Shown here: positions 3,292-62,455 of the stretch, in pieces
Numbering within the stretch: position 1 is the stretch's first letter
How the letters are laid out: every line of letters begins with the position of its first letter
NCBI GenBank assembly: GCA_012064415.1
Contig: SSNU01000127.1
Span: 45,302-109,301 of the forward strand
DNA length: 64,000 nucleotides
Source of the DNA: Gyrodactylus bullatarudis
Lineage: Eukaryota; Platyhelminthes; Monogenea; Gyrodactylidea; Gyrodactylidae
Reading direction: 5' to 3'
The notes under the pieces: generated by a model
The model's input: the letters and a program-made list of their open reading frames with translations, nothing else
Told to the model about the DNA's origin: nothing
Databases searched by the model: none
Translations under genes and position numbers: made by a program

Positions 3292-4117
3292 AAGCCGCTC
3301 TACGTCTTAAAAAGATCGACGACGACGATTTTTCAATAGACGAAATCATAAAAACCTTTGAAAAAATTTTCAAAACCTGATGTGCAATAAAAGACTACAA
3401 TTTTACTCTTGCAAAAAACCTAACAATATGTCCTACGACGAGTGGACCGAAAAAATAATGGACCTCCATGAAGAGGCAAAAATTGACGATATGTCATACC
3501 AAGAAAAGATAATGTACGCAGTCGCTAACTCCTTAGAAGAGAAAGACCCGGTTCGCCTAAAACTCCTCAAGACGGTGCCCAAGTTTAAGGGAAGAGATGA
3601 CGACCCCAACACCTACGAACTGGTACAACAAGCGTGGCAAGAGGAGCTCATGACAAAACAAGAAAAACAAAATGAAGAGGTGAACCTTATCGAAAGAAAA
3701 AGACAATACCCTTTCAGCAAGCCTAGGGACAGGCCCAATGGTAGATGCCGCCAGTGTGGAAAGAACCACTTCAATCGCCCCTGTCACTACGAAAACCACT
3801 TGTGTAAAAAATGCAATCGAGTAGGACACCCTGAATACAACTGTCAAGCCCGGACGAAAGCACCGGAACCTACAAGTGAGATCTTTCTTATAAGTATTGA
3901 TAATGTAGATACACACATTGACCTAAAACTAAATAATAAACCAATTAATTTCCTCTATGATACGGGAGCAAAAATAACGCTAATAACATTCGATGCTTAC
4001 ATAAACCTACATAGGATATATATAACTACCGTTAAATGTGTAACTGCTACCGGAGAGCTCCTACCACTAGAAAGAAAAATCGAAGCCGTAGTAGAACACC
4101 TCGGAAATATTAGGTAG
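3276..4117 (+). pseudogene. gypsy gag-protease remnant
   Basis: A leading open segment (3276-3377) ends in TGA; after a frame change the frame from ATG 3380 encodes 245 residues. Residues about 120-155 hold a zinc knuckle-like region with several CxxC and CxxC-x-x-x-GHPEYNC elements, typical of nucleic-acid-binding gag. Residues about 190-200 read FLYDTGAKITLI, the D-T-G active-site loop of a retropepsin-type protease that would work as a dimer. The frame ends at TAG before the end of the protease, and homologous coding continues in the next frame, so this is a frameshifted gag-pro segment. Confidence 0.85.
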
Positions 4118-5040
4118 GGACCTCATAGACTCGTTAAACATTCTTCGTCCGGGCCAGAAATGCCCTAATTGCGAAATTAACGTAATTGACACCGAAAGAT
4201 GCATCGAAAAAATAAGAACCCTAAACAATAAATCCAAGGGCTTATGTACTATTTCGGGTAGAATACGGCTAATCCCCGACGCTATTCCAGTTTTCAATCG
4301 AGCAAGATCAGTCCCATATAGCCGAGTGGAAATATTGTCACAGGAAATTGAGAGACTAGAGAGAGGGATTCATCGAGCCCATCCAATACGCCGATTGGGC
4401 CGCACCATTGGTATATATTCAAAAACCTAACGGGAAGATACGCATATGCATAGATTTGTCGAGAAAATTCAATGACCAAATTAAAGCTCACGAATACCCA
4501 GCCAAAGACGTGGAACACATACTAAGTCAATTATCAGGGGGAAAAATATTTTTCATAGTAGATCTGGCCGAAGCCTTCTTACAGATTCCCCTTGACGAAG
4601 ATTCCCAAAAGATCCTCAACATAAACACACACAAGGGTCCCTTTAAATGCAAAAGACTATGGTACGGGGTGAAAACAGCACCGGCAATATGCTGATAAGG
4701 TAGTCATAGTCATACCCGGCATTCTAAGATACATGGATGACATTCTAGGATTTGCGAAAGACGATAAAGACCTAGAAATCAGACTAACGCAACTGTTCGA
4801 AAGGCTAAACGAGTACGGACTAAAAGCAAACACAGAGAAAAGTTGATTCTTCGAAAAGGAGATAAAATTTTTAGGACACATAATAAACGAAGAGGGCTGA
4901 AAACCGGATCCCAACAAAGTGGAAGTCTTCAAAAAGATGAAAGCCCCAAATAACTGCAAAGAACTTTTGTCCTTCATGGGTATGGCCACATACTACAGCC
5001 CATACATAAGCGGAATACACCAATCACCAAACAGCCTTCG
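4118..5040 (+). pseudogene. gypsy reverse transcriptase remnant
   Basis: Spread over all three frames. One frame (about 4130-4370) gives GQKCPNC and VPYSRVE, the linker into RT. The frame at 4408-4695 gives the fingers/palm: KPNGKIRICIDLS, the catalytic-aspartate block IVDLAEAFLQIPL and KTAPAIC. After a stop near 4693, the YMDDILGFA catalytic box follows at about 4732, then KFLGHIINEEG, interrupted by in-frame TGA codons. All the usual RT blocks are visible but no single frame joins them. Confidence 0.87.
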
Positions 5041-5900
5041 AGAAAATCAAAGACCTAATTTCTGAAGATACCATGCTAGCACACTTCAATCCAAGGAAAA
5101 CCTCCATAGTAGCTGCAGACGCCAGTGAAAAAGCAATCGGAGGCGTTCTCCTCCAAATGGACAGGTTAGGGAACCGAAGACCCATAATACACGTACATCA
5201 TACCTTAAACACAGCCCAAAAGATATACAGCCAAAGGTCTAGCTCTAGTATTCTCAATAAACAGACTACACAAATACATCAAAGGATATCAATTCATATT
5301 ACAGACAGACCACAAACCCCTTTTGAACATATTTAAACCAAAGAATGGTATTCCCATATATACATCCTGCAGACTACAGAGATGGGGTATCCATCTATCT
5401 AACTACGACTTCGAGATCGAACACATTGGAACAAACCAATTCGGTATGGCAGACTGCTTATCGCGATTAATCGGAGAATCCAAAGAACCGAACGAAGAAA
5501 TTATACTGGCAGAAATAAACATAATTAACCAAACCGAAAAAGAAATCATCGAAGACACAGGTGAAGTCATTAACGCAATAGAGTTAACCTGGGAAGACAT
5601 CAAGACACATACATCCTTGGACAAAACCCTAGATAAGGTCAGCCAATACATCCAAAACGGGTGGCCAAGACCAAGAAGTTTACCCGAGAAAATAAGACAC
5701 TTCGAACAAAAGAAAGACGAAATAAGCTTAATAAACGACTGTCTCCTATTCAGAGAGAGGACCATAATACCAGAAACCCTCATTGGAAAAGTCCTCAAAG
5801 TGATGCACAAAGGACATCAATGTGCAGATAAAACCATTAACAGAGCGAGAAAAATAGTATATTGGAAAAGCATGGCCAGAATTTTGCTGAAAATGTGAAA
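5041..5900 (+). pseudogene. gypsy RNase H and H2C2 zinc-finger remnant
   Basis: The frame at 5073-5336 carries the RNase H start (VAADASEKAIGGVLLQ, with the first catalytic Asp and the GG turn). The frame at 5323-5898 continues with the tether region SNYDFEIEHIGTNQFGMADCLSRL, the standard end of gypsy RNase H, and enters the integrase H2C2 zinc-finger region (MHKGHQCADKTINRAR). The overlapping frames show a frameshift near 5330. Confidence 0.84.
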
Positions 5901-6520
5901 CATGCGTACAAGCAAGCAAACTACCACCGAAAGCTGAACCAAAACATTGGCCAGAAACAACAAGACCATGGGAAAGAATACATATTGACTTCGCTGAACC
6001 GGTTAATAAAACTTATGCATTAGTGGTGGTAGACAGCTTCAGCAAGTGGCTGGAAGTAGAGTTCACCGATCAACCCAACTCAAAATTTGTCATTAAGACC
6101 CTCGATAAGCTAAACGCTAGATTTGGACTACCGGAAACGATCGTGTCTGACAATGCGCCAAATTTCACTTCAGAAGAAATGAAGAAATGGGCAAAAGACA
6201 AAGACAAACGGTATGAACGAATTTCTAAGAGAATTCAGAGTTACTCCTAAACGTGAACTCAACGGTAAATCTCCTGCAGAAATGATGTTTAGGTTCGAAC
6301 CCAGATCCGAACTCTCCCTATTGAGACCGAAAAAAGAATAACAAAACAAAAATGGGAAATACGAAGAAGGGGAAAAAATCTGGTATAAAACACCTTAAAA
6401 GATACATGGGAAAAAGGGTTAGTAGAAAAATCGATAGGAGAAATCGTCTACATAAAAGGGGAGGGAGAGAAAGAGATCATCCGACACATAAACCATACGA
6501 AAAAGAGACACACTAATAAT
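5901..6520 (+). pseudogene. gypsy integrase remnant with deletion
   Basis: CETCVQASK-like finger residues follow a stop at 5896. The core then gives HIDFAEPV (first Asp), VVDSFSKWLEV and IVSDNAPNFTSEE (second Asp). The sequence jumps straight after KKWAKD to a C-terminal segment (FRVTPKRELNGKSPAEMMF in another frame), so the block with the catalytic Glu is deleted. Integrase inserts the cDNA; this copy cannot. Confidence 0.84.
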
Positions 6521-10854: not shown

Positions 10855-10877
10855 TTTAGGTCCCTCAATTATTCATT

Positions 10878-12387
10878 ATGAATCCTAAAGAAAGGTTCTA
10901 TCAAATTTTAGATGAAAAGAATTATGCTAAAAATTCTCAAATCTTACCTGAGCAAGAATACAACTGTTTATTAGATAAGATCAAATATGCTCATGCAGGT
11001 CAAAAACTAAAGCCTGAACACTACAGGCTTAAGAGGAAATTTAATTACCAGACAATCGATGGTGTATCTAAAATAATTTCAAACGTCGAAAATGACAATG
11101 TTATCAAATACTATGCAAAGAGAGAGGATATTTATGATATAATTTTAGAATGTCATTTAAGAATGGGACATGCAAAATCAAAAATTACTAAATCCGAAGT
11201 CGACTCTAAATACAAGAACATTTCGATGGATCAGATAAAAAATTTTATTTCTCTCTGCGATCATTGTATGAAAAATCTTCCAAAGCAAAATAAAGGTTTG
11301 GTTGTCAAACCTATTTTATCAAAAAATTTCAATTCCCGAGCTCAGATGGATCTGATTGATTACCAATCATCGCCGGACAACGAATTCAAGTTTATATTAG
11401 TGGTTCAAGATCACTTTACAAAATTTGTTAACTTGCGCCCTTTGAAATCAAAAACAGCAGCGGAAGTGAAATCTAAACTAGTGGAAATATTTTCTACATT
11501 TGGACCTCCTAAAATACTCCAATCAGACAATGGCAGAGAATTCAATAATGCCCTCATAGATTCTCTCACCAATGAATTTCCGGGATTAACTATTGTACAT
11601 GGTCGTCCCAGACACAGTCAATCACAAGGTTCAGTAGAACGTGCTAACAGAGACATTGAGGATATTCTCAAGAGTTGGCTTCATGAAAATAAAACTTCTT
11701 GCTGGGCAAAGGGCGTGCTCAAAGTTCAGATGATCAAAAATAATAGATATCATCGAACAATAAAATCAACTCCTTATAAAGTATTGTTTGGAGTAGATTT
11801 TATCAACGAAAAAGATGAGTTCTCTGAGGATCATTATGTCAGTTTTGAAGACAACATGGAAATGCTCGAAGGTAATTTAATTCTTATGTAAATATTTTTT
11901 AGAATCTCAAGAATTGAATGGAACCCAAAACGATCTAAGAGAGAGAGCAAGAGAAAATCAAATTGTATGCGCAACAAAAATGTTAAAGAACAACAAATTG
12001 ATTCGCGCTGAAGTTGGAGAAAATGTTCTTGTACCAATACCTGAAATCGATAGATCACGAATTGATGACAGAAACTTGCTTGGTGTCGTAACCGAAATTA
12101 AGGAAATCGGCTACTCAGTAGCTTGTGAAAACGGTAATCTTCAAGGTGTATTGGGCTTCGGACAAGTCAAACCAATAAAGGAAAAAATCTTAAATATCAA
12201 AGATAAGCCTAATGAAGTATTGAGTGTACGAACAGCAAGCTCGAAACAATCTCGTTCAGGTGGGCAAGGTTTTTTTAAGTGCAACTGTACCTCAGGTTGT
12301 AATACAAGGATGTACAAGTGTCGAAAAAACCATGTTACATGCAACTCCAAGTGCCATTCATCCTTAAGCTGCGAAAATAAATGCTGA
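10878..12387 (+). CDS. Ginger/KRBA2-like integrase transposase (two exons)
   Basis: From ATG 10878 the first exon encodes about 331 residues: an N-terminal region, an H2C2 zinc finger (H93, H98, C127, C130), then a DDE integrase core with MDLID (D158), QSDNG (D217) and QGSVE (E254), spacing D-36-E. The second part (ATC TCA AGA context from 11903) gives a chromodomain-like/beta region and a Cys-rich end, FKCNCTSGC...CNSKCHSSLSC. The frames join if 11872-11902 is a 31-nt GT-AG intron; otherwise it is a frameshift. The architecture matches gypsy-integrase-derived KRBA2-like proteins. TIRs on both sides favour a live transposon over a domesticated gene. Confidence 0.85.
11872..11902 (+). other. 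Candidate 31-nt intron
   Basis: GTAATTTAATTC...ATTTTTTAG begins with GT, ends in a pyrimidine-rich AG, contains the only in-frame stop (TAA at 11889), and its removal joins both frames at a GAA codon. It is shorter than usual animal introns. The alternative is a frameshift lesion. Confidence 0.45.
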
Positions 12388-17290: not shown

Positions 17291-17590
17291 GCAAAAACTC
17301 TATTAGTTTACAAATTCCAATGTGATTGTGGAGCCTCATATATAGGTAGAACGATTAGGAAATTATCTAAACGAGCGGAGGATCATCTGAAGAAGGATAC
17401 TGCGGTTAAAATGTATCTTAGACAAGAAGATCATACAGCTTCAATTTCTAATTTTTCCTTCTTATACAAAAACCCTAATGACGACAACATAGATGTATTG
17501 GTGAAAGAAAAATTTCTCATTAACCTATATAAACCTAATCTCTGTGTTAAGAATTATTCATATAATCTTCAACTACCTTGGGCAATGTGA
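17291..17590 (+). CDS. PLE GIY-YIG endonuclease domain (open fragment)
   Basis: An open frame of 99 codons between stops encodes LVYKFQCDCGASYIGRTIRK, the GIY-YIG signature (Y...SYIGRT with the catalytic Arg), a helix with RAEDHLKK and a late VLVKEKFLINLYKPNLC block. In Penelope-like elements this domain nicks target DNA to prime reverse transcription. It has the CxC ahead of GIY-YIG and no stop inside the domain. Its own RT is truncated, so it is probably not expressed as such. It lacks the long Lys/Arg tail of the other families. Confidence 0.85.
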   Translation, partial: AKTLLVYKFQCDCGASYIGRTIRKLSKRAEDHLKKDTAVKMYLRQEDHTASISNFSFLYKNPNDDNIDVLVKEKFLINLYKPNLCVKNYSYNLQLPWAM

Positions 17591-20649: not shown

Positions 20650-22305
20650 TCATTTAGACCAAGTCGTTAGAATATAAGCAAAATAATTATTATAATTGAC
20701 AATTATCACATATAAAATTAGAATGTACTTTACATATGTTTTTTCACATTTATAGCACGTTGTTTTAGTTTTTCTATCCTTCACCCATGTACAGATATAA
20801 CAATGGTCTCTTTTATTTGGCGCAATCTTGGCTATTTTTCTGGGCGGTTCTTCAGGTTCAGGATCGTTATTGACCTGCATCATTTGTTGACTCAATAATT
20901 TCAAGTATTTACGTCGTGAATACTTCTGTGTTTGTAAAAATTCGGGCCATTTCAAACAGTACAGTACATAAGCATTGTAAGCAGCTACATCGATGAGATT
21001 TTCAAATATTGTCAGGGGCCAACGTCGGGTTGACCTTCTACATGAATAGTTTCCCACAAGTTGGTCCAATGTATCGACTCCTCCTTTAGTTTTGTTGTAA
21101 TATTCAATAACTTCAGGTTTAGATCCAACAGTTTCTTGAGTTTGATGAAGTGTTGACAACAAAACAACAGGGCGATTTTTCTTTTGACCGTATTTGAGAA
21201 GAAGAATTTCTTCACTGAAAAGATATTCAATTTGGCCTTCAGAAATTTTTGTGTCTTGGAAGGAAGGTGGTAGAAAGGTTCGATTCTTACGGCATGTTCC
21301 AATAATAGCTGTCTTCTTCATTGATAAATATTTGGCTAAGTCATAGGTGGTAAAGAAATTGTCACAAGTCACAGTTCTACCAGCTCTTGTGAAAGGCTCC
21401 ATAAGCTGTTTTACTACTCTTTGTCCTTGGTTCTTTTCAGGCTGCGTACCTTCTTTACCAATATAAATTTCAGCATTACAAAGATAGGAATTTTTCGCGT
21501 CACATGCAGCCCATATTTTGATGCCGTATTTGCCTGGCTTTGAAGGAATGTACATCTTGAAGGGACAACGTCCTCTGAAGCTCACTAGCTGCTCATCAAC
21601 TGTCATTTGCTCTGAAGGTTGATATGCTTCGCGACAGTTTTTCACAAATTTATTGAAGACCAAACGTATTGGCTGTAGCTTATCTCTATCATGGGTCGCC
21701 AGTCTCGTAGTTTTATCATCGAAACGTATAAATTGTTTGATGACACAAAATCGAGAGTACGTCATACAACTTTGAAACAAGTTATTACTCCATAATTCTT
21801 GAAGTTCCATGTTTTTTTGCTTTGAAACTCCAAAAAAAAGAAGTATCCCTATCCATTTACGTATTTCATCTGTATTGATTTTAGAACTAGCAGAATTCAT
21901 ATGCTCCATGTACTTGTTGGAGTAACGAGTTATATCGCCAATCATGTCGTGATCAAGAAAAAGACTGAAAAAATCCTCATAGTCTACTGCTCTTCTTGAA
22001 ACTTTAGTCAGTCCTGGAGTCTGAGTGAAAATGTTTCTTGCTGGTGTCCTAGTCAAATTTTGTCTTTGACTTCGATATTCAATTGTACCACAGCGAGATA
22101 TATTCATTGAATTTGTTGGTTGATCTGTTTCTGTGAATTCTTCTTCTTCGTTATCAACCAAAATATCGTCCTCAATTTCACTACTAGTACTATCATTGTC
22201 AGGATTGAACGGAGCTAACTCTTGGTTTATTGCGTCTTGAAACAAGTCCATCTTTTCATGAAAGCAATGAAATAATGAAAACAAGATAAAACATCTCAAC
22301 TTCAT
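20650..22305 (-). CDS. piggyBac transposase
   Basis: 551 codons without a break. An acidic N-terminal region precedes the DDE_Tnp_1_7-type core with catalytic aspartates D237 (MTVDEQ), D315 (TCDNFF) and D411 (GGVDTLDQ, with D414 nearby). The C-terminus has a Cys-rich zinc-binding domain (HCYICTWVKD, TTCYKCEKTY) that in this family binds the TIRs. ATG 22305 gives an odd hydrophobic start; Met19 (22251, MDLFQ) is the more family-like start. The last ~25 residues after the Cys domain are hydrophobic read-through up to the TIR, so the original stop may have been lost. It cuts and pastes at TTAA without footprint. Confidence 0.93.
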   Translation of the reverse strand: MKLRCFILFSLFHCFHEKMDLFQDAINQELAPFNPDNDSTSSEIEDDILVDNEEEEFTETDQPTNSMNISRCGTIEYRSQRQNLTRTPARNIFTQTPGLTKVSRRAVDYEDFFSLFLDHDMIGDITRYSNKYMEHMNSASSKINTDEIRKWIGILLFFGVSKQKNMELQELWSNNLFQSCMTYSRFCVIKQFIRFDDKTTRLATHDRDKLQPIRLVFNKFVKNCREAYQPSEQMTVDEQLVSFRGRCPFKMYIPSKPGKYGIKIWAACDAKNSYLCNAEIYIGKEGTQPEKNQGQRVVKQLMEPFTRAGRTVTCDNFFTTYDLAKYLSMKKTAIIGTCRKNRTFLPPSFQDTKISEGQIEYLFSEEILLLKYGQKKNRPVVLLSTLHQTQETVGSKPEVIEYYNKTKGGVDTLDQLVGNYSCRRSTRRWPLTIFENLIDVAAYNAYVLYCLKWPEFLQTQKYSRRKYLKLLSQQMMQVNNDPEPEEPPRKIAKIAPNKRDHCYICTWVKDRKTKTTCYKCEKTYVKYILILYVIIVNYNNYFAYILTTWSK

Positions 22306-22568
22306 GTCATAAAGCTAAAATTGATTGGTCAATTTCACGAAAAAGGCCTTAAAATCAGGCTGGGTTTTCCAGACCCAGCCTTGTGGTACTTGTTTGGCAT
22401 ATTTCCCAAGCTTCTGGTTGAAAGTGGATTGTTCTCTCGAGTAAAAATGAATTGGGATTGCATTTATGAGAAATGGAATGAGGATTAGACGAAAAAAATT
22501 CCCAATTACCTCTTAGCTTAAGGAAGTTATGAGCTTTTAATATTTTACTGGGTCTGATAGACCCACAC

Positions 22569-25024: not shown

Positions 25025-25434
25025 AACCTACTAACAGAGTGTAGTCACTGGTAATTGCTATATCCATATGTAATCTAACTTGATGGAGATTGTCTTCTCA
25101 CACTTAGATGTTTGAATTCAGATAAGCAAGAGTCAATTCCATAAGAGAGTAAAATAATATCTGTATACCATAGCCAAGATTCTAACACGGGTCTTCAACA
25201 TTGTGGGGCAACGCTTCTAACCACTAGGCCAGAACCTAATTTAATTACCAGTAACCACTCTTTGCTAGAAGGTTTTTTTTCTAAAAGCACTGTAATATCT
25301 ACATTTTTATTTCAAAACAACCAGTGTCTAGGTGGTGTGAAAACTATGTGAGTTTTGAGTGATGAGAGATGAACAGGGGTTCTTGCCTCCCAACGTTGAA
25401 AACCCGGGTTAAAATCTCAACATCTTATTCAAAA
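25025..25434 (-). mobile_element. Hammerhead/tRNA SINE-like repeat, 5'-inverted copy
   Basis: The 410-bp insertion is flanked by CAACAATGATATT (25012-25024 and 25435-25447), a 13-bp TSD. On the minus strand it has a tRNA-like head with an A box (GGCCTAGTGGTTAG) and a weakened B box (TGTTAGAATCTTGG), then the usual body, but the hammerhead is deleted at about 25167. The right ~185 bp is the element's leader in opposite orientation (ACCAGTAACCACTCTTTGCT...), ending in a second tRNA-like piece. An inverted 5' segment with a TSD fits twin-primed reverse transcription. Confidence 0.78.
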
Positions 25435-26715: not shown

Positions 26716-26819
26716 AAGTTAATCAAAAACAAAATACTATTTATATACTTTCATTGGACAAAATCGATAGGTATGAGATCATGAAAGTATATAAATAGTA
26801 TTTTGTTTTTGATTAACTT

Positions 26820-26875
26820 GTCGTACCACTGAAGAAGGCGTGTGAAGACAATCACCGTCGAAACGTTTGGATGAC
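26820..26875 (+). ncRNA. Hammerhead ribozyme, type I, right arm
   Basis: Core CUGAAGA (26829-26835) and GAAA (26860-26863). Stem II is GGCG(U)GUGA with UCACCGUC, eight pairs with one bulge and a six-base loop. Stem III is a minimal A-U pair over CG. Stem I is CCA/UGG, an internal loop, then GUC/GAC, the layout of natural type-I hammerheads. One extra A sits between the core and stem II. Cleavage would be after U26867. Confidence 0.7.
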
Positions 26876-27894
26876 CATGGCTGAGAATTCTAATATTGAC
26901 CTAAGTTTTAATAAATTTTATTATAAAACTAATTTTAGATCATTTTTCACTGATTCAGAAATAAACAAACTCAAGCAACAAATGAATATTTGTGATTCCT
27001 TTTATAGTTTTCCCTTTGCTAATAAACAAGAAATCTCCAAATATTCGCTAAATGATCGTGAAATAGTTGATCAAAAAATAAATTCTATGGTCAATGAGAT
27101 TAATCAACGGACTGAAAAATCAAAAAACCTCATTATCTATAACCTGCCTGAAACCGAAAATGATATTCCTAATGTTCATGGTTACTTAGATAAACTTGAA
27201 AATAAAATTGAGAATATCATAAAAATAACTCGAATTGGCAAACAAATTCCAGGTAAATGCAGACCAATAAAAATACTTACTAACTCTGAAATTTATAGAA
27301 ATTTTTTTATTCTAAACAAAAACTCATTCCAATGCTCAAAATAAGAACCTCTAGAGATAAAACTATTCTTCAGCAAACAATAGCTACCTCTGAATATATT
27401 GCTAAAAAGAATAGTTTAAATCACTATGCCCAAATCGGTTTTTTGCATCTCGGTTATATACCTAAACCATGATTTTTCTCAACCAATGAGAGTACAGGGA
27501 ACATTCAGCCAATGAAATTCAAGCACATTGAATTTTAGATTTTTAAGTAGGTTTCCTGTTGTGTTTCACATAAATAGCCTTAAATAATATTTTTTCGAAA
27601 ATATTTTTATGTAAACGATTCAGTTATATAAAGATCTATCGTTTGGTATGCTTTTCAGAATTCTAGCTTCAGAAATAAGAAAGTTAAGAAAATCCACGTT
27701 TTTAACTATAAAATTAGTACAATTAAATGCAGAATTAAAAGTTTAGCCCTTTCCTAGAATTTCATAATGAAATATTATTCCAGGTCAAAACTAGACTGTT
27801 TTAAAGTTGGATGCGTCCAAAATTAGAAATACGACTTTTCTCAATATTGATTAGAAATTTAAATTATATTACTGCGAGTACAAGTAACTAGAAC

Positions 27895-28600
27895 TGGAAC
27901 TATAAATAATACTCCTTCTTTCTTTTTATCTAAAAATACTAATATTTCTCTTTTTCTACAAAATATAAGATCCTTATTTTCTGTCTATTTTCTTCTAAAA
28001 GCCTTTACATCAGACACTCAATATGATTTATACTGTTTTACTGAGACATGGCTGCACGACTCTCACTCCGATAATAGTCTCTACTTTGATGGTTATGTTT
28101 TTATAAGATCTGACAGAGTTGGTGATAAACATGGAGGAGTTTTATTATTTTTTAAAGATACTTTCAACCTAACATCATCCTATACCACTTCAATTAACAA
28201 AAATGAGCTACTAAACTGTGTTATTAAACTGTCTGACACAAAAATAGTAAATATAATCCTAGTTTACAGAAGACATATTAATACAACCACTGACGACTTC
28301 ATCCTAATGAGTCATATTGATTATATAATTGATAGATATATGGAGACTGAACTTATCATACTTGGTGATCTCAATCTTCCACATGAAGACTGAAATCATC
28401 CAAAGACTCATTTAGAATTATCCCAAATAATCAATATACCCACTAGACAAAACAACATCCTTGACTGTGTATTAATTGAAACAAATAATTGCTTATTTGA
28501 ATTTGATATTCAAAATATTTTCCCAAGTAAAGATCACTTAGGAGTTTTTGCCAAACTAACTTTGAAAATAAAACAGACACGAACAAATACTTTGAATTTA
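27895..28600 (+). pseudogene. LINE apurinic-type endonuclease
   Basis: The frames carry the EEP-fold blocks in order: LFLQNIRSL, CFTETWLHD (catalytic Glu), RSDRVGDKHGGVLLF, ILVYRR, LIILGDLNLPHED (catalytic Asp) and SKDHLGVFAKL (SDH motif with S-K-D-H). It would nick target DNA for the LINE. A stop follows DLNLPHED and later coding is in the same frame. Confidence 0.82.
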
Positions 28601-30400
28601 CTGATTTTAACATATTAAAAGCTGTCACGAATTTTAATGAAAATCTACTTAATATTAATAATTTTCTTGAGCAATATTCAAGAATATACTCACTATCTAC
28701 AATTAAGAAAGAAAGAGTTAATCTTGATAGCCTAGTATACAAGAAAAACATCTCTCTCAAAAATAAACTCAATAAATGCTTATCAATGCCTCTATCTGTT
28801 GAGATGATAGAAAATTCACAAAGACAGATCAAGAACCTTTACAATCTTGAATACGATAGAATTGAAAAAAAATTAAGAGACCATATTAGGATAAAAACCA
28901 AACAAGGATATTTCTATCTTAATAAATATTTTAAATTCTCTCATAAAAAAATGTTACCCACAATAACAAAAATAATTTGACTTGTGAAGCCTTACAAAAT
29001 ATCTTCATGTCAACTTTCAACAATTCTGCTCTAATAAACACCCAAGAATTCATCCATTGTGATTCATGCTCTAAATATCATAATAATACCTTTATGCGTT
29101 TTTCTGAGTTTAACAAATTATTAAGAAAACTCAGAAATAAAAACACTAAAGATTCTTATAAGATTAGTGTCAATATAATTATAAGTAGTCATGTAAATTA
29201 GTCACGCTTATTTTTTAATAATATTATTCCTGATTATATGTTACTCGCTAAAGTTATCCCTATTCCTAACCCCACTAGTAATATTTTTACAAAACACCCT
29301 CATGAAAATTATTGACTCAATTCTTTTCATCAAAATTCTTGGGATAATTGACATAGAAAAAATAGATCCTGATCAACATGGATTCTGTAAAGGCAAATCC
29401 TGTGAGACCAATATTTTTAATTTCTTGAACTATGTATCGTTTCTTAACAAGGATAAAAAGAAATCTATCGTAATTTATATTGACTTGTCTAAGGCCTTTG
29501 ACAAAATCTATATTCACAAAATTATAGAAATCTGTCATCACCACGGAGTATGTTCACATCTCCTAGAAATGCTAAAAATATATCTAACGGAACGTAAACA
29601 ATATGTTTCCTTCGAAAATAAAGACTCATTACCTCAGGTGTACCACAAGGCTCCAAAGTAGGTCCTCTACTATTCAATATTGTTTTTTCTCAAATAAATG
29701 TCACTGGAGCTAAGATCTTCAAATATGCTGATGATATGAAGATTGTCTATAGTTTTGATGACTTTATCGACATTGATTTCACTAACACGTCTCTGAAAAT
29801 TCTTTCAAATGATTTAAAAGCCTTAGGCTTAAGCATCAATGAAAGTAAAACTTTCTTCATTACACCTTTTACAACAATCCCTTTACAAAGAAATTTACTT
29901 GTGAATGAAAAAAAATCGATCCCAAATTCACAATTCGTGACTTGGGAGTTAAATATAATAACTTTTTTGACTTTACAGAACATTATAAAGATATCCATAG
30001 ATCTTTCATATCAAGATGCATGTAGATTCATAAATGCATAAAAAACCATTTCATGAAAGTTTTTCTCTTCAAAATGATGGCACGATCCGTTGTTGAATTT
30101 TGTGCAGGATGCTGGAATCCTGTGAAGCCCGAATGGTCTATGAAGCTTCAAAAAGTTGCCAAAATTTTCCGACGTAAACTGTCTGAACCATACAGGAAAA
30201 AACTCAGTCTACCTTCTGAATCAATAATGGTTCGAAGAGATATCAAAAGCATTCTACTCATCAAAAAGTGCCTCACTCCTCAAAGTCTTCCTGGACTCCG
30301 TGATCGATACAGAATACAAGGAGAAATCTGGCAATCTTCACGAGAAGCAAAAAATTATTTGAAAAGTTACCAAATATCATAAAAAGATTGAGTTTATTTG
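28601..30400 (+). pseudogene. LINE reverse transcriptase
   Basis: A linker rich in Lys (28620-29200) leads to LAKVIPIPNP, DPDQHGFCKGKSCETN, IVIYIDLSKAFDKI (first catalytic Asp), then a frameshift before GVPQGSKVGPLLF-type coding (29637-29680), KYADDMKIVYS (YADD box, ~29725) and the C-terminal RSVVEFCAGCWNP...LIKKCLTPQSLPGLRDRYR part ending at 30380. At least three frame changes make it inactive. Confidence 0.85.
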
Positions 30401-34830: not shown

Positions 34831-35368
34831 ATTTGTGCTTCTTTTTGGTACTTCTCTGTAGTTTTCTTGGTGTTGGTATTTTGAGAGTACATTTTATGGT
34901 GGGAGAGTTTTAATTATTGAAATTCTTATTCAAGCCGGTTAATTCCAATGTTCTAAAAACTATTTTATAACCTTGGTTTTTTTTGATTAAGGCTCCTGAG
35001 CTTAAATTTATAGTAATTAACATGAATCCTGTAAATAATATATTTAAATACCTTATATTTTTCAAAATTCTGAATAACAGATCATTTGAAACTTTAATGT
35101 CAGATTCTAAACTCATATGGAAGGTTAAAGAACAAAAAAACAGATTGGAGGAAGAAGATTATCAGCTTTAGCTGACGTCTCATTAATTTGTGCTGTCCAT
35201 TTAACGGTATTTTTAGATAAATAACCTACTAGCAAAGTGTGGTTGGTGGTAATTACTATATCCATTGACTCTCTAAATTGATGGAGATTGTCTTCTCACA
35301 TCTAAATGTTAGAAATTCGGATAAGCAATTCAATAAGAGAGTCAAATAATATTCAACTCATAGAGGCA

Positions 35369-35411
35369 GATGTAGACGCGTTTCGTCCTTGTTAGGACTC
35401 GTCAGTACACC
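35369..35411 (-). ncRNA. Hammerhead ribozyme, type I, intact core
   Basis: Minus strand: GGUGUA, CUGACGA, GUCC-UAACAA-GGAC (stem II), GAAA, short ACGCGU stem III, cleavage base C, then UACAUC pairing with GGUGUA (six pairs incl. one G-U). All invariant positions are present. Very short stem III is shared with the Schistosoma and animal retrozyme hammerheads. Confidence 0.85.
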
Positions 35412-35463
35412 ATAAGAGGAGATGAACGAGGCTCCTGGTCTAGCGTTGCCTCATCCTGGCTAT

Positions 35464-35506
35464 GGTGTAGTGACGAGTCCTAACAAGGACAAAACGCGTC
35501 CACATT
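35464..35506 (+). ncRNA. Hammerhead ribozyme, inactivated copy
   Basis: The sister of 35369-35411 on the plus strand. The core reads GUGACGA (C3 changed to G) and AAAA instead of GAAA (G12 changed to A); stem II GUCC/GGAC is unchanged. Both altered bases are needed for catalysis, so this copy should not cleave. Confidence 0.8.
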
Positions 35507-35699
35507 TGCCTCTATGAGTTGAATATTATTTGACTCTTTTATAGAATTGACACTTGCTTATCCGAATTCAAACATCTAGGTGTGAGAAGACAATCTCCAT
35601 CAATTTAGAGAGTCAATGGATATAGTAATTACCACCAACCACACTTTGCTGGTCAATGGATGTACCAGTAACTACGCTTTGCTAGTAGGTTAGAATCGA

Positions 35700-49029: not shown

Positions 49030-49215
49030 AACCTACTAGTAAAGTGTAGTAACATGTAATTACTGTATCCATATGAAATCTAACTTGATGGAAGTTGTCT
49101 TCTCACATTTAGATGAGCAAATGTCAATTCCATAAGAAGGTCAAATAATACTCATTTTAGGGTGGCAGATTTAGACGCGTTTGGTCCTTATCAGAGGTCT
49201 TTTGTCGCCAACTGC
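49030..49215 (-). mobile_element. Hammerhead/tRNA repeat, truncated
   Basis: The body matches the other copies from AACCTACTAG to the hammerhead. The ribozyme (49168-49200) is decayed: GACGCGTTT and GTCCTTAT remain on the plus strand, but the CUGACGA half is scrambled. The tRNA-like head is missing. Confidence 0.7.
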
Positions 49216-50725: not shown

Positions 50726-50935
50726 AAAATATTATTCATTTAAATAAGCACCATATGGAAATTACAATGTTTTTAGACAATTAACATACTAGCAAAGTGT
50801 GGTCACTGGTAATTACTATATCCATATGAACTCTAACTTGATGGTGATTGTCTTCTCACACCTAGATGTTAGAAATTCGGATAAGCAAGTGTCAATTCCA
50901 TAAAAGAGTCAAAAAATATTCAATTCACGTTGGCA

Positions 50936-50978
50936 GATGTAGACGCGTTTCGTCCTTATTAGGACTCGTCAGTGCACC
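50936..50978 (-). ncRNA. Hammerhead ribozyme, type I
   Basis: Minus strand: GGUGCA, CUGACGA, GUCC-UAAUAA-GGAC, GAAA, ACGCGU, cleavage base C, UACAUC. Core fully intact; stem I has one C-A mismatch compared with the 35.4-kb copy, and the stem II loop differs by one base. Confidence 0.85.
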
Positions 50979-51044
50979 ATAGCCAGGATTCGAACCCAGG
51001 TCTTGTGAGGCAACGCTTCTAACCACTAGACCAAAACCCCCGTA
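50979..51044 (-). other. tRNA-like head with Pol III A and B boxes
   Basis: Minus strand: TGGTCTAGTGGTTAG (A-box type, 51020-51033) and GGTTCGAATCC (B-box, 50986-50996), about 27 bases apart. The sequence ends 8 bases before the ribozyme core. No CCA-end acceptor stem closes the fold, so this is a tRNA-derived promoter rather than a tRNA gene. Confidence 0.78.
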
Positions 51045-51326
51045 GTACCCCCACACTCCCATAGTATTGACACCACCTACACACTTGTTTTTTTGTACCA
51101 TATGGAAACTACTGTGTTTTTAGACAATTAACCTACTAGCAAAGTGTGGTCACTGGTAATTATTCATTTAAACTTTTGAATAAATAATGCTTTCTTACAT
51201 TCGATTTGTTTACCCCATTTTTCTAAAGAACTATAATTCTCAAATATTACATACTTTATCAACTAGATCTTTTTCCTTTAAATAAGACCGATTGTTAATT
51301 ATAAATATATAATTAATATTGTAATT

Positions 51327-56830: not shown

Positions 56831-57039
56831 AAAATAGGGCACCGGCTGTATATATATATATAGAAAATAGTAAAACATTAGAAAAACATAATAAAACATG
56901 ATGAAAGCATAATTATCTCATAAATTTATCAAATACTCACAATTTAAGAATGTACAAGTAAAATTCCAAAATCTGTATATAATAGTTTATATTTTTCATA
57001 AAACCGGTCAATTTTAACAAAAATTAATGAAAATAAAAC

Positions 57040-57475
57040 TATTTTACCTGAGTTAAGTGTTCGTCGTTTGCAAATTTCAATGTCCATGCAATTCACTGTA
57101 CATTGTACGACAACAAGACGACTCGAGGACAGGATTGATGAACATCTCTACAAGGGCCAAACCGCGATCAGAGAGCATCTAAAAACATGTAATGCCCAAG
57201 TTTCCCCCCAAAACTTTGAAATTATTTACAAACCATCAGGGAAAAACGGTTACATTTTGAAAGCAGCTGAAGCTTACCTTATTAACGAAAAAAAGCCAAA
57301 TCTATGTGTACAAAAGAATCATGTGAAACCAATGAGCCTACCAAAACCGAGGGAGATAAAACCAGCAGGATCACAACCCCCTCCAATGAAAAGAAGACGG
57401 GAAGAGACAGAAACGAACCAACAAATTACCAAGTTCTTCGTAGCAATACAAACCCTAATTATCCTGATTCGCTAA
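57040..57475 (+). pseudogene. PLE GIY-YIG endonuclease and basic tail, one frameshift
   Basis: A first frame reads VCKFQCPCNSLYIV (CxC and GIY-half of the motif); a one-base shift near 57105 moves to TTRRLEDRIDEHLYKGQTAI, then NFEIIYKPSGKNGY and AAEAYLINEKKPNLC, the late endonuclease block. A tail of ~55 residues follows, with PPMKRRREETETNQQITKFF. NQQITKFF matches the PIP-box pattern except for N in place of Q at the first position. RT is absent upstream. Confidence 0.85.
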
Positions 57476-58739: not shown

Positions 58740-59155
58740 TTAAGTCTCTTTACCATCCCACACTATTAGAACTACCTGTACTTTATATTTGGGATTTGGT
58801 TTAGGCTCTCTAGCACTTCTTCTCAAGACTTTTTCTTCTTGTACAGCTATTTCCTTATTCTCTATAGATCTTTTTTCTTTCCTCATTGGCTGTTCTTTTT
58901 CTGTAACATTTTCATTTCTTTTCTTGATTTGATTTTCCCACTTGTCTTTATTCTTTCCAAAGGATAAGTACCAAACTTTCTCCCCTTTTTTAAATTTCGT
59001 CTCTATTTGCACAGTGGATCTATTTTTGGGAGTCAATAATTCAAATTCTGTTCGGATCTTTCTTCCGAAGAACATTTCAGCAGGAGTCTTTACTTCAAAT
59101 TTCACTTTTGGAGTATTTCGGAACATTTCTTAAAATACTTTTGTATTCTCTTCCA
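58740..59155 (-). pseudogene. gypsy integrase C-terminus
   Basis: Reads MFRNTPKVKFEVKTPAEMFF and KFKKGEKVWYLSFGKNKDKW, the GPY/F-like C-terminal region of gypsy integrase after the catalytic core, then an acidic/basic tail to stop. The catalytic core was lost at the junction with the piggyBac remnant near 59155. Confidence 0.8.
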
Positions 59156-59160
59156 TGTTT

Positions 59161-60150
59161 TTACAATGCATTTTCTTTAGATACGTCTGATTGGAATTGC
59201 ACGGGTAAAAAAGTCTTGTTTTTTCTGCATGTTCCATTTATTGCCGTTTTTTTAATCAGTAAAAATTTTGCAAGCTCAAAGGAAGTGAAAAAGTTGTCAC
59301 ATGTAGGTGTTCGACCTTGATTGTAATATGGGTGAAACAATTCTTTGACTACCCGTGCTCCTTGGCCTTTATCTACTTCGTTACCTTCTTTTCCTTGGTA
59401 AATTTGAGCGTTGCATAAATAATAACTTTTGGCGTCACAGGCTGCCCAAACTTTTATTCCATACTTGGCTGATTTAGATGGCATGTAAATCTGTTCAGTG
59501 GGACAGTATGCTTTTTGGGAGTTTTGAATAAAATTTTCGAAAATAATTCTAATAGGACCCAGTTTATCACGCTGAGCTCCAGTTGGCCGATTTTCTTTAT
59601 CATCGAATCTAAGAAATCTCTTGATTAGAAGAAATCTTGATAAAGTCATACACTTTGGTACACATTCATAAAAACCATCCCATAGTTCTTGTAAGTCCAT
59701 GTTCTTTTGTTTATAAACACCGAATAAAAGGTTTATTCCAATCCAATTTTTTACTTCTTCTGCTTTGATATCTGAGTGATTGGAACCTTTTAGCCTCATA
59801 TATTTGTTTGAATAGTTTGCTATATGTTGAATCATATTAGCATCGATGAGTAAATTGAAAAAATCTTCAGGATCAATACACGAATTGGGAAAATTTCGTC
59901 AGTCCTGGATTTGCTGTGAATATGTTACAAGCGATAGGTCTTGAGCAAAGAGCTTTTTTCGAGTAAAATATAGATCCACATTTTGAAACAAGTTGATTTG
60001 ATGAAATTGGAGTGTCCTCGTCTAATTCTGGATCAGAAATTTGCTCTTCAACATGAACCCTCTACACTGCTAGCCGAAGAGAAATTTTCGGATTCATCTG
60101 ATAATTCTCTATTCATAGCACGCGAGAACAGCTCTTGTACGTCTTTATTG
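59161..60150 (-). pseudogene. piggyBac transposase without first catalytic Asp
   Basis: N-terminal part (MSYNKDVQELFSRAMNREL, 60150) breaks at a stop after VEGSC and continues in other frames to 59836. The 59161-59835 frame then matches the 20.6-kb protein: IANYSNKYM, KNMDLQELWDG, RPTGAQRDKLGP. It jumps from CPTEQ to IYMPSKSAKYG, an in-frame loss of about 17 residues that includes the VDEQ aspartate. The second Asp (PTCDNFF) remains; the third and the Cys domain are deleted. Confidence 0.85.
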
Positions 60151-60443
60151 TAGCTCATGATGTGAATAAATGAATACGATAAAAATTCCATGTATGAAAT
60201 CAAAAAAAAAGACATATAAACAGGACGGGGTCGAAAAGACCCCAAATTCCGTCTGTGTTATTATTTTTTCTGAATGACTTATTTCATGTAATTATAGATC
60301 GACGACTGAAAAAAACAATCATTTTAGATAAATTGTTTGTTCTAGGATTACAGAAAAAATCATACAAAAAGAAAAAAAACAAAAAAGTTACAAAGGATTG
60401 AAATCACCTTGGGGTCAAAAAGACCCCAAATTCCATGCGAGGG
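59161..60443 (-). mobile_element. Second piggyBac element, one end missing
   Basis: The right end is intact: TTAA (60444-60447), CCCTCGCATGGAATTTGGGG TIR and GGGGTCAAAAAGACCCC hairpin (60408-60426), with a second GGGGTCGAAAAGACCCC at 60218-60236. The left end is missing; transposase coding runs into gypsy integrase. The target TTAA lies in the gypsy RNase H region, so this insertion split that element, and a later deletion removed the other junction. Confidence 0.83.
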
Positions 60444-60459
60444 TTAATATGGTTTTAAA

Positions 60460-60994
60460 ACTATCTTCTATTATTTGAATGCTTGCTATTATCACATCCT
60501 CTTGGCATTCTTCTTTTGGAGATCAGATCTTTAATCTGTTGAACTATTACACTATGCTTTTCTTCCCACACAAATTCTTAACTCTTCTGTAAGAGCTTCG
60601 TCAATTCAGGCGTATATTTATGCAAATCTTTCATATATGGAGAATAATACGTAACCATTCCCATAAACGTCTGTAAGTCTTTAACATTCTTTGGATCTTT
60701 CATCTTTTTGAAGCTTCCAACTCTTTCTGGATCTGATCTTTTACCTTCACTCATGATGATGTTTCCCAGGAATTTGATTTTGCTTTCGAAGAATTTTGAT
60801 TTTGTCAGATTTTCTTTCAAACCGTATTCTTCTAATCTTTTAAATAATTCAATTATTATCTTTCCCAGATTTTCTTCATTATCAGCGAATCCAAGGATAT
60901 CGTCCATATACGATCTGACATTTTTCATGTTAGCTGTTACTTTGTCTACTATTTCTTGACAAATTGCTGGAGCTGTCTTTATGCCATAACACAA
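60460..60994 (-). pseudogene. gypsy RT (catalytic part) to RNase H
   Basis: Reads CYGIKTAPAICQEIVDKV, RSYMDDILGFADNEENL (YMDD), KSKFFESKIKFLGNI and FMGMVTYYSPYMKDLHKYTP, all standard gypsy RT blocks. After a stop at 60578 it continues with KEFVWEEKHSVIVQQIKDLI until the piggyBac TTAA. Confidence 0.88.
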
Positions 60995-61156
60995 TCAGTT
61001 CCATCTATATAGACCCAACTGTGTATTCATCGTCAGAATATCTCTATCTTCCTTCCGGACTGGAATCTGTAAGAAGGCTTCTTTCAAATCTACCACGAAG
61101 AAAATTACACCACCGGCCAAACTAGCGAGGACATCTTCCATATTCTTCTGTGGATA

Positions 61157-61984
61157 TCAATAATCTTCTATTTGGTCATTGGTACCATTCGAAAGGTCTA
61201 TACACATTCGAATAGTCCCATTTGGCTTCTTTACATACACCGGAGGACTTGCCCAATGTGAGAACTCATCAAATTTTTGTATGTAGCCTATGCTTTCCAA
61301 TCTATTTATCTCTTCTGTGCATGCTTCAACCCTGCAATATGGAACAGATCTTCTTTGATGAAATATTGTTCTGTGATTTTGCTTTTTCCGGATGTAACAC
61401 TCTATTTTGCAGAATCCTGGACTTTCATCATTCAACTTTTGAATTGTAGCCAATATGAGATTCCTATCGAATTTCACTTGAAAGATCGCTATACTACAGT
61501 TTGGACACTTTTGACCTCTTCTCATCACGTTCATACTGTATATGACGTCTGTACCGAGGATATTCTGATGTATATCAGGCGATACTAGGATTTCGAATTG
61601 CATCTTTTGATTTCCGTATTCAATTTCACAATTGATCTTTCCATACACTATCATTGGGTCATTCTTTACTGTTCTGCATCTGATCTGTGTTGGCAGTATT
61701 TTTGGTCTATAAAGCTCATGAAACATCTTTACATTGATCAAGTTTACTTTTGCTCCAGTGTCATATAAACAAGTTATCATTTTATTATTTACTATCATAT
61801 CTATTAAGTCTCTACTATCATCATCGGATATAATATTGCAAATAATGAACTCACCTTTGGGTTCTTCTTTTTTGAACCAGCAAAGTTCTGCTTTGTGTCC
61901 AACTTTCCCACAATTGTTGCATTTTTTGTCCGCGTAAAAGCATCGTCCCTCAAGGATTTTTCCGCACGAACGACATTTGAACAC
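61157..61984 (-). pseudogene. gypsy zinc knuckle, protease and RT start
   Basis: Residues 1-35 hold CRSCGK and CNNCGKVGHKAELC knuckles; CLYDTGAKVNLI is the protease active site; GQKCPNC follows; then RRSVPYCRVE, VYVKKPNGTIRMCIDLSNG open RT. The frame ends at 61157; the RT block EAFLQIPV continues in another frame (61030-61150). Confidence 0.87.
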
Positions 61985-62020
61985 TCTGTTCTCTGATCTT
62001 CTCCTTTTCGGCTGGACCTC

Positions 62021-62455
62021 TTAGTCACTTTCAATAGACACGAATTCATAGCTCCTTTTGTAGCTTGGTTTGCCATCCCCAAAGATGACATTCATTTCAT
62101 CTATCAGTCTTTCTAGCGTAACTGATTTGTGGTTAAACTCCAGAGGGTCTAGCTGTCTTTCGAGTTGTTCCAATGCATCTTCATCAATCTTTTTGATGAA
62201 TTCGACCTTCTTCATTTCCTCCGAAATGCCTTTCGTGGCCGTTTCGAAGATAACTCTTTTTCTTCTCCAGAATTTACAAAAATCTTGTTTAGCGTCTCCC
62301 TTGAATCTCTCTTCATTATCGTGTAGCTGTCTCGTGATGGTCCTTACCACCCTCTTACTATTTGCAGTCTTTACGGGAGCTTTCGTAACACTGTGAGAGT
62401 TCGAGGTTTCCTGGAAATCCACTTCATAGTCCAATTCTTCGAAACCCGAATTCAA
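62021..62455 (-). pseudogene. gypsy gag
   Basis: 144 codons, charged and helical (LHDNEERFKGDAKQDFCKF, EMKKVEFIKKIDEDALEQLE), a gag capsid-like segment directly upstream of the zinc-knuckle frame; overlap shows a frameshift. Start uncertain. Confidence 0.7.

Follow-up and report, generated by a model that had tools for sequence, protein, structure and literature searches.

A tRNA-headed hammerhead SINE of Gyrodactylus bullatarudis, probably copied by Penelope-type reverse transcription

The 414-bp element considered here lies in a 64,000-nt stretch of the genome of the monogenean flatworm Gyrodactylus bullatarudis (contig SSNU01000127.1; hereafter the window). The COX1 of this genome, read with table 5 in view of 12 internal TGA codons, has 83% identity to that of Gyrodactylus albolacustris, and its remaining best named matches are likewise from flatworms. 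The element sets a tRNA-like head beside a predicted hammerhead ribozyme and contains no ORF of 90 or more aa, and hence none combining the reverse transcriptase (RT) and GIY-YIG domains of an autonomous Penelope-like element.

The element in the window and its relatives

The features of the window copy, and the other family copies in the window, are as follows.

50745..51158, minus strand: whole element, made up of one 345-bp unit and 69 bp from the start of another; its 3' terminus falls in the long (tail) class
50731..50744: left copy of the 14-bp TSD, ATTATTCATTTAAA
51159..51172: right copy of the TSD, a 14-bp match between the flanks
51023..51033, minus strand: A box TGGTCTAGTGG of the tRNA-like head, part of a predicted Pol III promoter
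50986..50996, minus strand: B box GGTTCGAATCC, the sole minus-strand match of the B-box pattern in the window
50932..50984, minus strand: type I hammerhead (Rfam RF00163 match 50978-50936) with the core invariants kept
50745..50811, minus strand: terminal partial second unit, containing the short (unit position about 41) and long (about 75) 3' end sites of the family
35204..35692: head-to-head copy, with a minus arm (35204-35414) that has an intact hammerhead core and a plus arm (35453-35692)
25054..25388: degraded copy with one arm per strand
49059..49194, minus strand: degraded partial copy

The initial annotation had described a unit and part of a second one within a TSD, carrying A and B boxes. 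The TSD can be read directly on both sides, both boxes are present on the minus strand (51033-51023 and 50996-50986), and the unit-plus structure holds, although the two parts measure 345 and 69 bp rather than 347 and 66 bp. The hammerhead, which had been called intact, keeps its invariant core but has one C-A mismatch in helix I that is absent from the four family-1 loci compared. The 8 bases that had been placed between head and ribozyme are also there, but they belong to the ribozyme, separating the head from its core as stem I. In the aligned rows, the head is without 7 anticodon-arm bases present in other copies, and its box starts are 37 nt apart versus 44 nt in the family consensus. The missing bases and the helix I mismatch mark the window copy as a worn one; its two partial repeats have no variants in common and differ in 9 of 65 columns. 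Two of the three further copies in the window (near 25, 35 and 49 kb) are degraded.

The rest of the genome (77.3 Mb in 471 contigs) supports the view that these copies represent a mobile family that generates TSDs and combines a tRNA-like head with a type I hammerhead. The 37-nt hammerhead core recurs there 286 times at three or fewer mismatches (140 forward, 146 reverse), with at least 58 exact copies, whereas the reversed pattern, used as a control, has no match genome-wide, so the recurrence exceeds chance. In some of these core copies, GTA replaces GTC at the cut site. The copies analyzed in greater depth come from 40 loci, namely the window and 39 fetched regions, which are the best-scoring 40 of 898 candidates; having been chosen as the best matches of the window copy, they are biased towards it. 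The consensus unit built from the family copies has 369 nt and 41% GC, and is thus short, low in GC and noncoding, within the 150-450 bp of retrozymes. The copies were split into 77 arms, of which 60 were retained because they span the unit junction and stop within positions 28-85; of the 17 dropped, 14 do not reach across the junction and three stop at 27, 143 and 144.

Two kinds of variants stand apart within the family. A rare longer form, with 15 first-look candidates genome-wide, has about 260-370 bp of additional sequence separating the G-rich leader from the tRNA-like head (L043:229-487, L055:1681-2053, also L104), and may be an older, longer form of the family. Conversely, short arms that begin with the tRNA-like head, finish with the tail and contain nothing else of the unit are seen at L028, L036, L037, L045, L048, L049, L050, L054 (two arms), L055 and L056. 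These 11 arms are closer to the consensus than the other 49 (97.7% versus 94.3%), as if they were a young, self-sufficient subfamily. The arm at L035 likewise starts at the head, yet covers 1.74 units.

The genome also contains a second tRNA-hammerhead family (L009-L018), with a 378-nt unit, a different tRNA-like head and 3' region, and GTA at the predicted cut. Of 57 Rfam hammerhead matches, the 17 inspected reveal no further kind of hammerhead: the ten strongest, with up to 45.2 bits, are members of this family, and the other seven (L107-L113) look by eye like truncated copies of it. A third, more diverged lineage is present at L104:1857-2165, with ACGUACGU as its stem III and a damaged core. 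A head with A- and B-box-like sequence is fused to a hammerhead in family 1 (that of the window), in family 2 and in this third lineage.

The ribozyme, the tRNA-like head and the template

At the gathering threshold, Rfam has no match in the window. At a lax threshold, the window hammerhead is recovered as type I with 22.2 bits (gathering 34; E 0.0092 for 701 bases), and four other family-1 loci reach 26.6 bits with the type I model, still under the gathering score of 34. The core invariants are kept in 42 of the 53 complete unit copies, as in the type I hammerheads of retrozymes. Stronger conservation of the hammerhead within the family was considered and rejected, the core being 95.3% conserved versus 95.9% for the last third of the unit. 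A reading of the family 1 and family 2 sequences shows that their stems I differ, two of the pairs having changed on both sides. Stem III is the six-base palindrome ACGCGU, which is too short for a stable hairpin, making it plausible that the hammerhead cuts as a dimer; a weak helix III often blocks the self-cleavage of type I monomers but not of dimers (PMC7761336).

The predicted cut in the window copy falls between 50942 and 50941. It had been suggested that the ribozyme trims the promoter-bearing leader before copying. However, 53 of the 60 arms cross the predicted cut site and none starts within positions 235-245, which leaves this step unsupported. Religated circles would cross the cut site too; the inserted copies themselves bear no trace of ribozyme cutting.

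The A and B boxes of the consensus start 44 nt apart, a spacing like that of tRNA genes, and make up a head of the kind that tRNA-derived SINEs have. ARAGORN predicts no tRNA in the window or the consensus, and in six loci Rfam matches no tRNA at E values up to 5. Of the eight stretches whose conservation was compared, the A box ranks lowest (88.9%). From its boxes, the head is presumably a Pol III promoter. The absence of a Pol III terminator was set aside as evidence: neither family has a TTTT in the sense strand, but 27% and 15% of shuffles also have none.

The 5' ends of the arms bear on the role of the head. Of the 60 arms, 12 have their start at 133-148, near the A box, which would be the outcome if the head were the beginning of many templates (P 8.8e-6 for uniform starts, with the interval picked after seeing the data). 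Pol III would start a few bases further upstream, whereas these starts coincide with the A box or lie within it; a stop of the RT at the folded head is therefore an alternative cause of the cluster. A stop at a tRNA base modification was also entertained and dropped, because the predicted fold of the consensus is a long hairpin rather than a cloverleaf and no tRNA model matches it.

The window copy is not alone in its excess length, as had been anticipated: 28 of the 60 arms are longer than one unit, the longest having 641 nt or 1.74 units, and none has two full units. Where the excess over one unit is greater than 25 nt (21 arms), the same non-consensus base appears in repeated columns in 2.7% of cases versus 0.63% between loci, and 6.0% of the repeated columns differ versus 9.8% between loci. 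This sharing of variants within an insertion fits one circular or one multimeric template RNA.

Such over-length arms and shared variants also favor a reading of the family as a typical animal retrozyme, in which the hammerhead cuts, a ligase closes the circle that serves as the only template, and the tRNA-like head is an inert leftover; the weak helix III, too, is typical of such type I hammerheads (PMC7761336). We nevertheless regard this reading as unlikely. The 12 arms starting at the head are as from a linear, promoter-started RNA, an A/B-box-like head stands beside the hammerhead in two more diverged lineages, and no sampled arm reaches two full units. Animal non-LTR retrozymes share with the family a type I hammerhead, a unit of 150-450 bp, a GC content below 50%, over-length copies and Penelope elements in the same genome (PMC7229834). 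In contrast, they seem to be promoterless (PMC7761336), whereas the family has a tRNA-like head with A and B boxes as its predicted promoter, and they are described as dimers to large multimers, whereas no arm among the 60 sampled has two full units.

Two 3' ends, head-to-head pairs and target sites

The 3' ends of the 60 arms fall into two groups, one at 30-54 (31 arms, around 41) and the other at 62-80 (29 arms, around 75). These short and long ends, about 34 nt apart, correspond to the two 3' end classes, distinguished by a tail, of Penelope elements. Both sites coincide with A-runs (consensus 38-42 and 73-78).

Arms also occur in head-to-head pairs, with their 3' ends facing outward. When 3' ends from 25 to 85 are allowed, there are 19 such pairs, 15 of which join a long end to a short one, with three short-short and one long-long (P 0.0096 for chance pairing). 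Four pairs thus break the long/short rule; the long-long pair, at L045, has no flank match of 8 bp or more and adjoins a further arm, and may therefore be composite. A shared flank of at least 8 bp is present in 17 of the 19 pairs, versus 4.1% of mismatched flank pairs. These shared flanks have a median of 13 bp and are 81% AT, although their lengths may be overstated because the windows used for flank matching extend 8 bases into the element on each side. With looser end calling, which included clusters without two clean 3' ends, at least 8 bp is shared in 13 of 24 pairs and 21 of 50 clusters, versus 2.0% of mismatched flanks. Inverted head-to-head copies, one of them tailed, within a TSD are the form that Penelope insertions take. 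Overlooked in the initial annotation, the two 3' end sites and the head-to-head pairs suggest reverse transcription of the Penelope type.

For one Penelope enzyme, cleavage and extension of both target strands have been shown, with copying initiated at two neighboring internal positions in its RNA; the genomic "tail" is described as the sequence between these two RT start sites (PMC11167929). Inverted pLTRs have a 31-bp tail on one of them, with TSDs of 8-10 bp, and some insertions are without TSDs (PMC3846280). The family thus resembles Penelope-like elements in its two 3' end classes, inverted head-to-head copies and short TSDs (PMC11167929, PMC3846280). It differs from them in being without a reverse transcriptase or endonuclease, in its tRNA-like head, and in having a canonical type I hammerhead where they have a minimal variant.

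Elements that could supply the enzyme are found in the same genome. The window is dense in mobile-element ORFs (3362-6250, 10860-12387, 20650-22314, 26817-30382 and 58740-62455), of which those at 3.4-6.3 and 58.7-62.5 kb we take, from their motifs, to be of LTR type. The domains and Penelope pieces in the window are as follows.

10860-11891: integrase core (Pfam)
20650-22314: piggyBac-like ORF, whose matches, unnamed proteins with at most 48% identity, carry PF13843
27863-29661: LINE-like endonuclease and reverse transcriptase (Pfam)
17291..17590, plus strand: piece of a GIY-YIG ORF of Penelope-like family A (Pfam PF01541, 22.9 bits)
57002..57475, plus strand: end of a GIY-YIG ORF of Penelope-like family B; itself unmatched in Pfam, it has a relative in L073 that carries RVT_1 and GIY-YIG within a single frame

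Family A is confirmed by Pfam in L063 as well as at 17291-17590 of the window, and family B in L073. Elements with RT and GIY-YIG domains in a single frame are abundant, with at least 150 and at least 151 scored matches for the two families, from 3088 and 2122 first-look candidates. Each of the two families shows two end classes. Seven of the fetched Penelope loci are represented on both strands. Five of them have two arms that each extend to an end site, and all five are long/short; in the other two, one arm stops early (L071) or the second piece is internal (L062). The flanks shared in the five loci measure 12, 12, 10, 7 and 12 bp, the case of 7 bp being weak because mismatched flanks reach at least 7 bp in 4 of 56. 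In family B, a minimal hammerhead-like motif (CTGATGAG...GAAA) can be seen by eye upstream of the two end sites (L073:about 2075-2105).

The second tRNA-hammerhead family likewise has two groups of ends, at 308-336 (8) and 362-365 (4) of its 378-nt unit. Its three head-to-head cases with both ends comprise two long/short and one short-short, with shared flanks of 6, 9 and 12 bp, the first of which is no better than chance. The 3' region of family 1 has no similarity beyond shuffles to that of family 2 or to those of Penelope families A and B, so that neither of the latter is marked out as its partner.

The A-runs raise the prospect that a LINE RT primes internally at these two sites and that the family is a LINE-mobilized SINE, its head-to-head copies being due to twin priming. 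A LINE-like element with endonuclease and reverse transcriptase domains is indeed present in the window at 27-30 kb, and the long end site of Penelope family A also adjoins an A-run. In twin priming, however, both arms come from one RNA and are without sequence overlap, whereas the paired arms of the family overlap, both running to their 3' ends. Moreover, the long/short rule is also obeyed by the Penelope elements of this genome, and the end sites of family B are not at A-runs. The 3' region of the family is also unmatched in the 1 kb downstream of the LINE-like ORFs of the window (236 of 300 shuffles score as high). We therefore consider this origin unlikely.

It is likewise unlikely that the family, instead of being a SINE that carries a promoter itself, is part of an autonomous Penelope element, namely its pLTR: pLTRs can bear hammerheads, tails and partial tandems (PMC11167929), but the 3' region of the family has no match in those of the two Penelope families examined (132 and 305 of 500 shuffles score as high), no tRNA-like head is mentioned for pLTRs in the accessible text of PMC11167929 and PMC3846280, where the term tRNA has 0 occurrences, and the hammerhead core is present in 286 copies.

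A route of copying and its bearing on animal hammerhead elements

Together, these observations are best explained by a tRNA-headed hammerhead SINE with a unit of about 370 bp and the insertion signature of Penelope elements, and we consider it probable that it is transcribed by Pol III and copied by a Penelope-type RT. The latter follows from the Penelope-type insertion marks of the copies, which make elements of this type the likely agents of copying. In the proposed sequence of events, transcription by Pol III would begin at the head and continue across the hammerhead to cover the remainder of the unit. The Penelope enzyme would then cut both strands of an AT-rich target, roughly 8-16 bp apart, and each DNA end would prime inside the RNA at unit position about 41 or about 75, regardless of where the 3' end of the RNA itself lies. 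Two cDNAs would grow towards the 5' end of the RNA and be joined head to head, or a single one would be joined to the target. The templates would mostly be uncut at the hammerhead, or rejoined, and some would be longer than one unit, deriving from RNA in circular or multimeric form, to whose production the ribozyme may contribute.

The combination of head and ribozyme is not in itself new. The initial annotation had supposed that a tRNA-headed hammerhead SINE may be undescribed, but this claim to novelty fails because Sm-alpha of Schistosoma has been published as a tRNA-derived SINE with a hammerhead (PMC2770079). Sm-alpha and Sj-alpha are both SINE-like elements with a hammerhead, and the Sm-alpha-like copies derive from tRNA-Gln (PMC2770079, PMC8490949). 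By description, the family is thus like them in being a SINE-like, hammerhead-bearing element of a flatworm with a tRNA-derived head (in the Sm-alpha-like case); it differs in its tail-type ends, head-to-head pairs and proposed mobilization by Penelope, none of which is mentioned in the accessible text of these papers (PMC2770079, PMC8490949).

The mobilizing role of Penelope has been proposed before, on the basis of co-occurrence, common hammerheads and tandem copies, which make it a strong candidate for the mobilizer of animal retrozymes (PMC7229834, PMC7761336). A literature search, with most subscription journals outside its scope, yielded no description of a SINE or retrozyme with ends of the Penelope tail type. 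What the present family adds is evidence from insertion sites for Penelope as the mobilizer of retrozymes.

More generally, we lean slightly towards the view that there is a class of SINEs mobilized by Penelope-like elements rather than LINEs, in which a Pol III-promoted hammerhead RNA would be copied from two internal start sites, and that this is the route of animal retrozymes in general. With the Penelope enzyme starting internally in this way, such an RNA could do without a defined 3' end. The family accordingly suggests that the copies of a SINE may terminate internally, with no fixed end of the transcript, and calls into question whether hammerhead cutting precedes copying. It thereby bears on what moves the hammerhead elements of animals, and the Penelope tail signature in its copies makes the proposal of a Penelope mobilizer testable from the genome itself.
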